Assembly (NCBI GenBank): GCA_018650845.1
Contig: JABIFF010000005.1
Location: 1-64,000, forward strand
From: Chloroflexota bacterium
GTDB taxonomy: Bacteria; Chloroflexota; Dehalococcoidia; Lucifugimonadales; Lucifugimonadaceae
Direction of reading: 5' to 3'
DNA: 64,000 bases
Below the pieces are notes generated by a model. The model did no database searches, was not told the DNA's origin, and worked only from the letters and a program-made list of their open reading frames with translations. Positions 43,217 through 53,292 of the stretch are shown here, in pieces. The translations under genes and the position numbers were made by a program. Numbering within the stretch: position 1 is the first letter of the stretch; each line of letters opens with the position of its first letter.

Positions 43217-43234
43217 ATTCACGTGAGTCTTGCC

Positions 43235-43613
43235 GCGAGGCAGACTATAAGCCGAGTCCTGTACTGATGAGGAAGAGCCTCACCAGTGACGGTCATCCAT
43301 CTAGGCCTGCAATTGCTCGCAGGCTCAAGCAACCAACCCGGAAGCTACCCGAATCCGGTCATCACTTCCCTATTTGGTCTTGCACCGAGTGAGGTTTACC
43401 TTGCCCCGCATGTCGCCATCCGGGCGGTGCGCTCTTACCGCACCCTTTCAGCCTTACCGATGCGCCGATTTCTCGACGGTCCGGCGGTTTTCTTTCTGTT
43501 GCACTTTCTGTCGGGTCGCCCCGCCCTGCCGTTAGCAGGCACTCTGATTCATGAGGTGCTCGGACTTTCCTCCCCTACGCCTAAACGCAGCGGCGACCGT
43601 CCGTCCTCCTCGC
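43235..43613 (-). ncRNA. rnpB: RNase P RNA (bacterial type A)
   Basis: On the minus strand the 5' part carries the conserved P4/J-region GAGGAAAGTCCGAGC and the 3' part ends ACAGGACTCGGCTTATAG; both are signature segments of bacterial RNase P RNA. The ends (GCGAGG and CCTCGC) pair to form helix P1, which sets the limits used here (about 379 bases). The central part contains GGGTGCGGTAAGAGCGCACC, the usual conserved core. The ribozyme subunit cleaves tRNA 5' leaders together with RnpA. An open reading frame of 112 codons on the opposite strand across this gene is not believed. Confidence 0.93.
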
Positions 43614-49452: not shown

Positions 49453-50898
49453 TTAGGTTCGCGGAATTACTTCGACGCTGTCTTCGCCTGTGATCACACG
49501 TTCAAGCAATGACGATGCTGCAGCTTTCGCAAGCGCAACATCGGTGCCTTGAATTTCAGTGAGAAGTTTCTCGACATCAACCGGTTCGACATTTTCGGAG
49601 CCAATGCTAGCTCGTGCCTGTTCGAGCCGTTCTAACGGCGCGGCCAGATCGTTCAGTGTGCCGTACGCGGAAGCTACCGATCTAACTGCCCTACTGAACT
49701 CGCGCTCTGCCTCTGAAATCTCTTCTGCCAGAGTATCGCCAACCACAGGTCGCAGTTTTTTCTTGATGCGAAGTCCCCACCGCTGAACCTGCTCAATTAC
49801 AGCCTTTTCAAGTTCATCTGCGTGCCAAGACGAATGCCGAGATACGCCGACTTCCCGTTCGTTGCGTGCGTCACGTGACGGACATTCGTAGTAGCGGTAC
49901 GACTTGGAAGCAGAGGTCCCGTCGACGCGCTTCCATGCACGACGTCGCGTCAGACCTGAAAGACCTCTTCCGCAAAGATCGCAGCGTGCGATTCCTCCGA
50001 GCAGGTATGGTGGCTCGGTGGCTCGTCGACGAACCGGTTTGCGAGTTTTCGTTACGGCGTCGGCCCGATTAAATATTTCTCGATCGATTAGCGGTTCGTG
50101 GCTACCGGCGATTCGAACGCCGTAGCGTGTGTACGTGCCCAGATAAGTCCGATTTTTGAGAATGCCAGAAACAGCCAATGCCGACCATGGCCGACCTGTA
50201 CGAGTCAAAAGCCCACGATCGTTTAGCGAACGAGCAATAGCCCGTAGTCCGGGACCACCGAGTGGTTTCGAATTTTCAGCGTGCCAGGGGCCGGCATAAG
50301 TTTCAAATATTTCGCGAACGATTTCAGATTCGCCCTCAGCCGGTTTCAGCAAGCCGTCAGTGCCAGCTTCATAACCGAACGGGGTTCGCCCCAACACTTC
50401 ACCACGTGATGCTTTGGCAACAATGGCGTCTCGAATACGCGCCTGGCGTTGTGGTGATCTTCCACCTAGCCCAAGTAGCTCTTCGCCGCTCTGAAGGGCA
50501 TCAGGTCGATTCGGATCCGTGCACCGAACTTCGGTTCCGAGTCGTTCTAGCTCAAGCAGTCGAGTAACAAGCGTTTCGATATCTTCAGCTAAATGCGATG
50601 CGTCAGGAACGATCACCAGCGCTAAACGAGCGTTTGCGCCTTTGAACGACGCGATCATTTGGCGATAACGATCGTGCCTTGCATCGAAATCGTTGACTTG
50701 CTCATCTTCGCTGGGCTCGAACCAGTTGACTAGCTGGTGAGAATTTCGCTGGCAGTAAAGTTCGATTTCTGCGCGCGGACTAAGACGATCACCAGAATCA
50801 AAAACGTCCCCATCATTTTGACTTTCGTCATCATGATTCAGGGACGCGTTCTTACTTTGACTTTGGGCGGGTTCGCTATGGAATCCGACTGCCCGCAA
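49453..50898 (-). CDS. Large serine recombinase homologue with degenerate catalytic domain
   Basis: A 481-residue protein with the large serine recombinase layout: N-terminal resolvase-like domain (1-165), Recombinase domain (RIRDAIVAKASRGEVLGRTPFGYEAG, later RSLNDRGLLTRTGRPWSALAVSGILKNRTYLG), zinc ribbon (RCDLCGRGLS and YYECPSRD) and a C-terminal coiled coil. The catalytic serine of the AVGYxRVST motif is Pro10 in AVGFHSEPA, and the DRLSR arginines are DASHL (99-103). A 25-residue polar insert follows the first strand. A TTG start directly abuts the stop of the zinc-ribbon gene, so the two are one operon. It cannot catalyse normal serine recombination; DNA binding only is likely. No attachment sites or mobile element genes surround it. 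Confidence 0.85.
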   Translation of the reverse strand: MRAVGFHSEPAQSQSKNASLNHDDESQNDGDVFDSGDRLSPRAEIELYCQRNSHQLVNWFEPSEDEQVNDFDARHDRYRQMIASFKGANARLALVIVPDASHLAEDIETLVTRLLELERLGTEVRCTDPNRPDALQSGEELLGLGGRSPQRQARIRDAIVAKASRGEVLGRTPFGYEAGTDGLLKPAEGESEIVREIFETYAGPWHAENSKPLGGPGLRAIARSLNDRGLLTRTGRPWSALAVSGILKNRTYLGTYTRYGVRIAGSHEPLIDREIFNRADAVTKTRKPVRRRATEPPYLLGGIARCDLCGRGLSGLTRRRAWKRVDGTSASKSYRYYECPSRDARNEREVGVSRHSSWHADELEKAVIEQVQRWGLRIKKKLRPVVGDTLAEEISEAEREFSRAVRSVASAYGTLNDLAAPLERLEQARASIGSENVEPVDVEKLLTEIQGTDVALAKAAASSLLERVITGEDSVEVIPRT

Positions 50899-51600
50899 TT
50901 ATTGTTCTGTCAGGAGAGCCCTGCCACAGCTGCAGGGAATAGGGCCGTCAGCCGCTCGAAGTCGAGTCAGCTCACCAACAGGGAGTCGAACTGCACAACC
51001 CTGGCAAACGCCACGGTCGACACGTACAACTGCGATACCTCGGTTAGATCGGAACAAGCGTGTGTATCGAGCGAGGTCTTCTTCAGGAATCTGCGATGCT
51101 TCGGCGTTGCGGGTTTCAAGCATTTCGTTGAATGCTGTTCCACGCTTAGCCTTTTCCGACCGGAGCTCTACCTGCCGAGTCTCCCAGGTCTTTTCTCGAT
51201 CGCTGAGTTCTTTGGTCAAATCTTCGAACTGCTGACGAGCGTGCTCTGCAGCTACTTCAGCCGGAGCAATCGATTCTTCAATCTGCGCTAGGTTTCGTCG
51301 GGCTGCCGAGTGTTCGGTCTCGATAGCCGTGAGCTCTCGAACATTGGTGATTGCGCCACCATAAAGTCGGGATTCCAGTTCTGCGACCTGTTCTTTCAGT
51401 GTCGCTAGATCGGATTCAAGCCGGGCGGTTTCAACCTTGGCTTCTAATTCCCGAACTCGGGTCTTCTCGCAGGTGTCCCTCAGCTCAGGAAGTCCACCTT
51501 CAGAGCTAAGCTCTTTCTCAACCTCCCTATATTCACGACGTTTCAGAGCTAGAGCCTGGTCAGTATCTTGAAGGGAAAGGAGAGATTGTGCGATTGTCAC
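50899..51600 (-). CDS. C4-type zinc-ribbon coiled-coil protein
   Basis: A 233-residue protein: a long coiled coil (from LLSLQDTDQALALKRREYREVEKEL to about residue 170) followed by a C-terminal zinc ribbon with CQGC and CSCG (VCQGCAVRLPVGELTRLRAADGPIPCSCG). This is the pattern of the CdsZ/zinc-ribbon regulatory proteins (zf-RING_7 group) that are broadly conserved and proposed to act in RNA or nucleic-acid functions. The GTG at 51600 with AGGA upstream is chosen; a longer frame from 51783 lies in the promoter region of pyk. The recombinase-like gene follows with no space, suggesting coupled expression. Confidence 0.82.
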   Translation of the reverse strand: MTIAQSLLSLQDTDQALALKRREYREVEKELSSEGGLPELRDTCEKTRVRELEAKVETARLESDLATLKEQVAELESRLYGGAITNVRELTAIETEHSAARRNLAQIEESIAPAEVAAEHARQQFEDLTKELSDREKTWETRQVELRSEKAKRGTAFNEMLETRNAEASQIPEEDLARYTRLFRSNRGIAVVRVDRGVCQGCAVRLPVGELTRLRAADGPIPCSCGRALLTEQ

Positions 51601-51733
51601 GTAGTGATCCTGAGGTCCGAAAATGGCGGAAAGTTGCCGGGGGGTTCTATTGAATACTAGTCCTATGAGTTTCGGTGTCAAATCCGCATGGGCTATCCTC
51701 ACCCCAAAAACAGGCCAACCTGTCATCGGAAAT

Positions 51734-51750: not shown

Positions 51751-51798
51751 CGTTTTATGATGAAGTAGTACTTCCCTATCCAATATTTGGAGATTCGA

Positions 51799-53292
51799 TT
51801 GGCCGATACCGACAGTTCTTATTTACTTCCGCCGTTCCTTAAGAGCCGAGCGCGCACACGCATTGTTTGCACTATTGGCCCTGCAACAGGGACTCTATCT
51901 CGGATCAAACGGCTAATTCGTGCGGGTATGTCGGTTGGCAGATTAAATCTCAGCCACGGAAATTCTGAGCACCATAATCACTATGTTCAGATTCTAAGGC
52001 AAGCCGCCGAAGAAATGGGAGTCGCTGTCGGCATCCTAGCCGACCTGCCTGGTCCGAAGTACCGCGTCGGCGAAATGGCGCAGCCAGAAATCACACTTTC
52101 GACTGGTCAGCACTTCATCCTCCAACGCACTCCCTGCGACGGAACCTCTGAACGCGCCAATGTTTGGCCGCTAGGGCTTCACTCCGATATCAAGAAGGGT
52201 GCACCAGTTCTTATTGATGAAGGCTCTATTGAACTTCGCGTAGAAGAAATCGATGAAGAAGAGATTCACTGCCGAGTAACAATGGGCGGTGTTATGAAGC
52301 CAAATAAGGCTGTTACTGCTCCCGGAAACACGACAACTGTCGACTATTTCACTCCTGAGACAGAAGATGCCCTTAGCTGGGTTATTTCATCTGATATCGA
52401 CTACGTAGGGCTTTCGTACGTCCGAGATGGTGGCGACGTAGAGCGCGTTCGTAAGCACCTTTCTGACGGCGGAGTCACGCCTCAGCTAGTGGCGAAAATC
52501 GAGATTCAGCAGGCTGTCGATAATCTCAGCGATATTCTTGAAAAATCAGATGCTGTGATGGTCGCCCGTGGTGATCTTGGTGTCGAGCTTCCATTCGAAC
52601 GAGTGCCATCTGTCCAAAAACAGATCATCCGCATGGCTAACGAAATCGGCAAGCCGGTAATCACTGCCACGCAGATGATGGAATCGATGATCGAATCGCC
52701 ATCACCTACTCGCGCTGAAGTCACCGATGTCTACAACGCTGTTCGGGATGGAACCGACGCAATCATGCTTTCCGCCGAGACATCGGTAGGAAAGCACCCG
52801 TTCCGCGCTGTTCAGGCAATGACAAAAATTTCCAAGCGCGCAGAACGTTATCTGGAATATCCAAAACTGGCAGGCCGCAGACGTACAGCTGCCTCCAAGG
52901 GCGGACTCGCCGTCGATGATGCAATTGCCGACGGCGCAGCCGTGGCAGCAGCAAGTCTGAACGCCAAAGCAATCGTCGCATTCACCGCCTCAGGCAGCAC
53001 AGCAGGTCGTGTGGCCGCATACAGGCCCGTAACGCCCCTGCTTGCTCTCACGCCAGATATCGGCGCAGGTGCCAAGCTTGCTCTCCGCTGGGGAGTGATC
53101 CCTGTTGTGGTTGAAGAACATAGCGATATTCAAGATATGTTCGCCGCCGCTTCAGATCTAGCACTTCAGACGAAGATAGCCAAAGAAGGCGATGTGATCG
53201 TTGCAGTTGTCGGACTTCCAATTGGAGTACCGGGAACAACGAACTTGCTGCGAGTTATCACGCTTCCAGAACCGGTTAGCCACAAAGGCTAA
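51799..53292 (+). CDS. pyk: Pyruvate kinase
   Basis: A 497-residue enzyme of glycolysis making ATP and pyruvate from PEP. The N-terminal strand (RIVCTIGPATGT), NLSHGNSEHH, the metal/K+ segment AKIEIQQAVDN and MVARGDLGVELP, and ITATQMMESMIESPSPTRAEVTDV are all typical. The C-terminal domain (AIVAFTASGSTAGRVAAYRP) is present. The TTG at 51799 has TGGAGA 6-11 bases upstream; a TTG 12 bases earlier has no such signal. With ppdK nearby it allows the PEP/pyruvate step to run both ways. The gene is divergent from the zinc-ribbon operon across a palindrome. Confidence 0.95.
   Translation: MADTDSSYLLPPFLKSRARTRIVCTIGPATGTLSRIKRLIRAGMSVGRLNLSHGNSEHHNHYVQILRQAAEEMGVAVGILADLPGPKYRVGEMAQPEITLSTGQHFILQRTPCDGTSERANVWPLGLHSDIKKGAPVLIDEGSIELRVEEIDEEEIHCRVTMGGVMKPNKAVTAPGNTTTVDYFTPETEDALSWVISSDIDYVGLSYVRDGGDVERVRKHLSDGGVTPQLVAKIEIQQAVDNLSDILEKSDAVMVARGDLGVELPFERVPSVQKQIIRMANEIGKPVITATQMMESMIESPSPTRAEVTDVYNAVRDGTDAIMLSAETSVGKHPFRAVQAMTKISKRAERYLEYPKLAGRRRTAASKGGLAVDDAIADGAAVAAASLNAKAIVAFTASGSTAGRVAAYRPVTPLLALTPDIGAGAKLALRWGVIPVVVEEHSDIQDMFAAASDLALQTKIAKEGDVIVAVVGLPIGVPGTTNLLRVITLPEPVSHKG

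Follow-up and report, generated by a model that had tools for sequence, protein, structure and literature searches.

A serine recombinase homologue without catalytic residues, carried as a chromosomal gene through much of the Dehalococcoidia

Recombinase genes are usually taken as marks of mobile DNA, and in large serine integrases the region of the Recombinase domain and zinc ribbon binds DNA, as seen in integrase-DNA structures. MrpR (YopR), the SPbeta repressor, is derived from a recombinase; it is reported to have lost recombinase function and to act via DNA binding (PMC10516654). TldR is presented as a phage regulator derived from TnpB (PMC13418256). We found no description of a serine recombinase turned by domestication into a cellular gene of a bacterial class in the open literature searched by title and abstract opening, a scope that excludes subscription papers and preprints. 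The word 'recombinase' is absent from the main text of the paper on cultivated SAR202 bacteria (PMC10444878).

We have analyzed a window of 64,000 nucleotides (the whole stretch of DNA under study, contig JABIFF010000005.1) from the genus Candidatus Lucifugimonas, in the SAR202 cluster of the class Dehalococcoidia. It contains a homologue of the large serine recombinases, here called SR, that is a stable chromosomal gene through much of the class. Judged by its sequence, its catalytic chemistry is gone, and its DNA-binding face is more uniform than that of active relatives. Automatic annotation may well label the family an integrase. The features discussed are as follows.

49453..50898, minus strand: SR, large-serine-recombinase homologue without catalysis residues, 481 amino acids, TTG start (open reading frame, Pfam, orthologues, catalytic residues)
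50476..50898, minus strand: SR residues 1-141, N-terminal linker and resolvase-like domain (alignment, profile comparison)
50029..50340, minus strand: SR residues 187-290, Recombinase (DNA-binding) domain (PF07508 at residues 190-284, conservation)
49783..50004, minus strand: SR residues 299-372, recombinase zinc ribbon (PF13408, ligand table; three Cys kept)
50899..51600, minus strand: ZNR, CT398/CdsZ-like coiled-coil and zinc-ribbon protein, directly upstream of SR
51658..51683, minus strand: promoter-like element upstream of ZNR, conserved in the genus (alignment of 15 genomes)
51787..53292, plus strand: pyk, pyruvate kinase, divergent neighbour (Pfam); the true start may lie slightly downstream
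43232..43612, minus strand: rnpB, RNase P RNA (Rfam), on the same strand as SR and, in this genus, 5.8 kb downstream of it

The likeness of SR to large serine integrases lies in the Recombinase and zinc-ribbon Pfam domains common to both. The family profile matches the C-terminal DNA-binding parts of the A118 integrase (4KIS, 6DNW) and of SPbeta YokA/SprA (9DXH), with 94 and 85 bits, and SR matches PHROG integrase family 95 over residues 152-476 (E 7.1e-49). It differs from the integrases in lacking the catalytic set, in its vertical inheritance, and in occupying a fixed chromosomal place with no element around it. Among phage relatives 329 records match, none of which covers 80% of the query, all at less than 60% identity, and the ten phage matches listed fall within SR residues 154-454. 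What we propose for SR is the same idea as for MrpR, a former recombinase that binds DNA, although binding by SR has not been shown. The two differ in origin: MrpR is encoded by a phage and has the fold of the tyrosine recombinases, whereas SR has the domains of serine recombinases, not that fold, and is a chromosomal gene of the class.

The SR gene and its immediate neighbours

The SR reading frame is intact over 481 codons. An earlier note on this DNA, made from the sequence without database searches, held that the Recombinase domain and zinc ribbon were retained, and Pfam bears this out, with 59.7 bits for PF07508 (cut-off 21.1) and 38.4 bits for PF13408 (cut-off 25.3). Both domains are present in all 33 members of our set A1. 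PF00239 (Resolvase) reaches 17 bits, under its cut-off of 23.3; by profile comparison the N-terminal domain is homologous to the active domain (hhalign probability 99.3%, E 1.4e-20). SR is the sole PF07508 match in the source assembly, which is 87% complete. AlphaFold, given four sequences as input, returned a model with a mean pLDDT of 44, which is unusable; helices at residues 389-409 and 415-430 appear in it, where a coiled coil is in question, and are weakly conserved. The closest named match, 88% identical, is from Candidatus Lucifugimonas marina JH1073, a cultured strain with a closed genome, and the DNA target of SR can therefore be sought in vitro.

We place the start of ZNR at 51600 because of a conserved length of about 233 amino acids, in agreement with the coordinates of the earlier note. 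Its profile matches CT398 (CdsZ), HP0958 and MSMEG_4306 over nearly the full length (E 7.8e-30 to 6.7e-21), and it differs from these proteins in being paired with SR. The NCBIfam CdsZ equivalog is not met (36.2 bits against a cut-off of 275). HP0958 binds flaA mRNA through its zinc ribbon, according to the paper on MSMEG_4306 (PMC5947703).

SR begins at the stop codon of ZNR, as had been noticed earlier, its TTG abutting the TAA in the same frame. The genes are not fused, as they were then called, but abut, probably with translational coupling. From this arrangement we infer that coupled translation and a joint task are suggested. In 84 of the 96 distinct orthologous loci ZNR directly precedes SR, on the same strand and at a distance of no more than 236 nt, often 0-12 nt; one of the 12 remaining loci is a contig edge. 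The pair is indeed divergent from pyk (Pfam), which holds this position in 37 of the 46 loci of the order, with at least two of the nine misses at contig ends. The absence of phage or element genes nearby was also borne out, in that none of 18 flanking open reading frames (35.7 kb to the window end) matches a mobile-element family at E<=1e-5; four of the 18 match no Pfam family.

Allowing up to three mismatches, the promoter-like element upstream of ZNR is found once per genome in four genomes, with no match in the control. The genus alignment of the pyk-ZNR region contains no clear dyad, only this conserved element. A search for an operator by counting gapped 4+4-mers over 75 upstream regions gave promoter-like words only, the top word occurring in 14 of the 75 against 9 of 75 in one shuffle. 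A strict promoter pattern occurs upstream of the RNA gene in 7 of 43 regions against 1.9 expected from mononucleotide shuffles, so that rnpB promoters are suggested, not shown.

Loss of catalytic residues and constraint on the remaining domains

Our alignment comprised 97 family members and 20 active recombinases, of which 17 belong to the same class and three come from elsewhere in the phylum. Duplicates (L094, L095, L098, L103) had been removed before the counts of 96 and 97, the truncated rows L071, L077 and L139 were retained among the 97, and the active controls exclude L166, L176, L178 and L179, whose N-terminal part is missing, broken or in another frame. All 20 active recombinases keep R8, S10, R68 and R71. 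The corresponding columns in SR hold S8, P10, H102 and E105, which confirms both the replacement of the nucleophile serine by Pro10 and the loss of the catalytic arginines reported from the sequence at the outset. Across the family none of the four residues is kept in 44 members, one in 47 and two in six, and no member has three or four. Many different residues occur in the S10 and R71 columns; serine stands at S10 in five of the 97, never together with R68 and R71. Since no member has a catalytic set and the N-terminal domain retains its homology by hhalign, we judge from these sequence comparisons that the cleavage chemistry is lost and that the fold is probably kept.

A single member, L107 in genome G234, has both R8 and S10, with R68 and R71 gone; decay may here be at a late stage, or the residues may have come back by chance. 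Among the active recombinases, L186 (G048) and L170-L172 (G010, G014, G017) have N-terminal domains that by eye are nearest to the dead family, to which they are not joined in the tree.

Pairwise identity was compared between 84 family rows and the 20 active rows, with the same-genus loci L052-L064 excluded, as they were from the distance tests. In the catalytic-like part the mean is 0.25 for the family against 0.35 for the active recombinases, and in helix E 0.39 against 0.38. The order is reversed in the Recombinase domain (0.46 against 0.31) and the zinc domain (0.45 against 0.36), with 0.22 against 0.20 in the C-terminal part. Since diversity is not the same in both sets, it is the contrast between domains that is useful. 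Nine positions of the Recombinase and zinc domains (R219, T232, R233, Y256, R258, G260, H267, R318 and W322) show 90-99% fixation across the family, compared with 0-35% among active relatives. This fixed face suggests a fixed kind of target, an inference for which there are no binding data. For Cys49 the fixation is 94% in the family and 25% in active recombinases.

The zinc ligands are kept in 93 of the 97 members under a loose rule requiring three Cys followed soon after by Cys or His, with 66 of the Cys type and 27 of the His type. By this rule the source SR is one of the 27, its fourth ligand probably being His and not Cys. In four of the 97 rows, including a truncated one, this set of ligands is incomplete. 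In the source's family the fourth ligand appears to have changed from Cys to His (27 of 97 rows, loose rule).

Within the genus, dN/dS is 0.06 for the catalytic-like part, 0.04 for helix E, 0.06 for the Recombinase domain, 0.11 for the zinc domain, 0.25 for the C-terminal part and 0.36 for the N-terminal linker. These values come from 3-7 pairs per domain, and 71 for the linker, and dS is saturated. The core of the dead domain is thus also under selection within the genus, which argues against that domain being a mere relic. A 'polar insert' that had been described in the catalytic domain is present at about residues 11-40, in the form of a rapidly changing linker (dN/dS of 0.36 over residues 1-40).

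Distribution and descent

With SR as query, matches are found in 51 of 60 genomes (the source and 59 relatives), those in G039 and G042 being weak. The family profile matches 203 of 294 Dehalococcoidia genomes at E<=1e-20. On a hand count 153 of these genomes reach 4e-50 or better and the other 50 score no better than 1.5e-45, and we take the family to be carried by the 153, about half of the sampled class genomes. The border was checked by inspecting 15 genomes at or below it; the remaining 37 genomes with weaker matches lie outside that check. The strongest two of the 15, G291 (5.2e-54) and G325 (4.0e-50), contain family members adjoining ZNR. Among the other 13, 11 have at least one match bearing both active-type motifs (YxRxS and [DSNA]RxxR); in G127 and G064 RxxR is present and the frame as read starts past the serine position. 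In a set of 400 genomes from the phylum, matches at E<=1e-50 occur in 24, of which 21, including the source, belong to the class. The three others (1e-52 to 1e-55) gave four loci, three of them recombinases with the full catalytic set and the fourth, L166, with an in-frame stop; the dead family is thus seen in this class only among these 400.

In small SAR202 genomes (1.0-1.5 Mb) SR is shortened, to 378 and 405 amino acids in L049 and L050, or absent, as in genome G024, and loss of the gene seems to be under way there.

We built a tree from the DNA-binding columns only, leaving out 17 rows that were near-copies, fragments or divergent. One branch in it separates all 80 dead rows from the 20 active rows. 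The SH-aLRT support of this branch is 91, below the usual 95, and the deep forks are unresolved. Of 13 taxonomic families with at least two rows 11 are clades, f48 and f85 being the exceptions, and the order is not a clade. Pairwise distances of SR correlate with those of ZNR (r 0.75 over 70 loci) and of PYK (r 0.67 over 27 loci), and in neither case did any of 199 permutations reach as high a value. Because the ZNR and PYK genes are linked to SR, joint transfer is not excluded by these correlations. One origin and largely vertical descent fit best. The core observation of the earlier note is confirmed, and proves broader than was thought. The note had missed how widely the family occurs in the class, and that rnpB is a neighbour.

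The rnpB neighbourhood and the role of SR

In the source window pirin, PPDK and hydrolase genes separate SR from rnpB, whereas in many relatives the two adjoin. We searched 54 hand-picked loci with Rfam. rnpB was found in 41 and not in the other 13. It follows SR within 1 kb, on the same strand, in 39 of the 54 (within 100 nt in 25), and lies on the opposite strand in two of the 41. An RNase HI-like frame was seen by eye between SR and rnpB in 12 loci outside SAR202, and confirmed by Pfam in L129.

Where genomes lack the dead SR and have both ZNR and rnpB, the pair lies within 1 kb on one strand in 12 of 29, two of them outside the class. The linkage of ZNR to rnpB is therefore older than SR, which most likely joined a ZNR-(RNase HI)-rnpB cluster that already existed. 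We have accordingly lowered the claim that the rnpB neighbourhood is evidence of SR function. None of the six loci of family f30 has ZNR directly upstream, yet in four of them SR is followed by rnpB (three) or SRP RNA (one); at L110 and L111 yceD and fatty-acid genes lie on the other side of SR, of which only yceD was tested with Pfam. This arrangement hints at a link of SR with these RNA genes, without proving it.

We think it likely that one ancient domestication produced a vertically inherited, sequence-specific DNA-binding protein, where the binding is inferred and no target or operator has been found. The observed basis is a single branch of the tree, no catalytic set in the members examined, stable adjacency to ZNR, purifying selection and retention of the DNA-binding domains. 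As an evolutionary statement, the earlier reading of a domesticated gene in a core setting is well supported, because neither outcome named as refuting it has appeared: orthologues do not keep the serine as part of a catalytic set (0 of 97, L107 alone having R8 and S10), and the linkage to ZNR is found elsewhere. A large serine recombinase, probably borne by a mobile element, would have landed next to ZNR, ahead of RNase HI-rnpB, in a common ancestor of many Dehalococcoidia. There it would have lost the ability to cleave DNA and passed into vertical inheritance as a gene of the host. We infer that SR and ZNR are produced jointly through coupled translation, and that SR most likely dimerizes through its dead N-terminal domain while its Recombinase and zinc domains bind one fixed, two-fold-symmetric site without cutting, as integrases bind attachment sites. 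It would then be a sequence-specific factor in transcription or DNA architecture, perhaps at its own pyk/ZNR-rnpB locus. Against this count the lack of any demonstrated binding or target and the operator searches that returned promoter-like sequence only. To these are added the unusable AlphaFold model, the incomplete zinc ligands in four of 97 rows, the shortened or absent SR in some SAR202 genomes, the SH-aLRT of 91 and the saturated dS.

The neighbouring genes could be read differently: together with ZNR, RNase HI and RNase P RNA, SR would have been recruited to RNA metabolism, where RNA or RNA-DNA hybrids would be the substrate of its Recombinase domain and zinc ribbon. The closeness of rnpB in 39 of 54 loci, the SRP RNA in two more, the RNase H genes sharing the cluster and the mRNA binding described for HP0958 would all fit. 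We nevertheless find this unlikely, given that the ZNR-rnpB linkage predates SR and that the domains kept in SR are established DNA binders in integrases. It is likewise improbable, and a little more so, that SR is a protein partner of ZNR, kept for that contact with its DNA binding disused. Tight linkage, the correlated SR-ZNR distances and the constraint on the catalytic-like core within the genus (dN/dS 0.06) are in accord with partnership, but the DNA-binding domains are the most conserved part of SR across the class, and SR persists in 12 of 96 loci without ZNR directly upstream (one a contig edge).

That SR is still a recombinase, using an altered active site or catalysis supplied by a partner, could draw on the homology of its N-terminal domain to the active one, the constraint on that core within the genus and the near-fixation of Cys49. 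At most two of the four key residues survive in any of the 97 members, however, the positions of S10 and R71 vary greatly and no mobile-element family occurs among the 18 flanking frames, so that we give this very little credence. Least credible is a decaying pseudogene, which the loss of catalytic residues and the shortened L049 and L050 might have suggested. Frames are open class-wide in one conserved place, dN/dS within the genus is low, and the zinc ligands and DNA-binding domains are conserved; for the source SR we reject it.

Returning to the domesticated DNA-binding protein, we offer one extension that we regard as speculative and rather doubtful. SR may be a cell-owned, class-wide protein for site-specific DNA bridging or regulation, for which the ancestral attachment site survives at housekeeping RNA genes, and which with ZNR controls or organizes rnpB and, in some lineages, SRP RNA. 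If true, a serine integrase would have turned into a chromosomal housekeeping regulator.

Some individual loci may be recorded. Both within the class and beyond it, ZNR and rnpB are neighbours without SR, at G072:C1:377289-378855, G057:C1:163398-164507 and G364:C29:74796-76319; the gap of about 520 nt in G072, whose sequence was not read, would fit an RNase HI gene. At L121:5410-6300 (plus strand) a gene of the RNase HII family replaces RNase HI between SR and rnpB. SRP RNA is found in two of the 13 loci without rnpB, 44 nt downstream of SR at L120:3665-3932 (minus strand) and 64 nt downstream at L111:5424-5685 (plus strand), and these two loci belong to different families. In one genome a c-di-AMP riboswitch lies downstream of SR (L128:2539-2670, minus strand).
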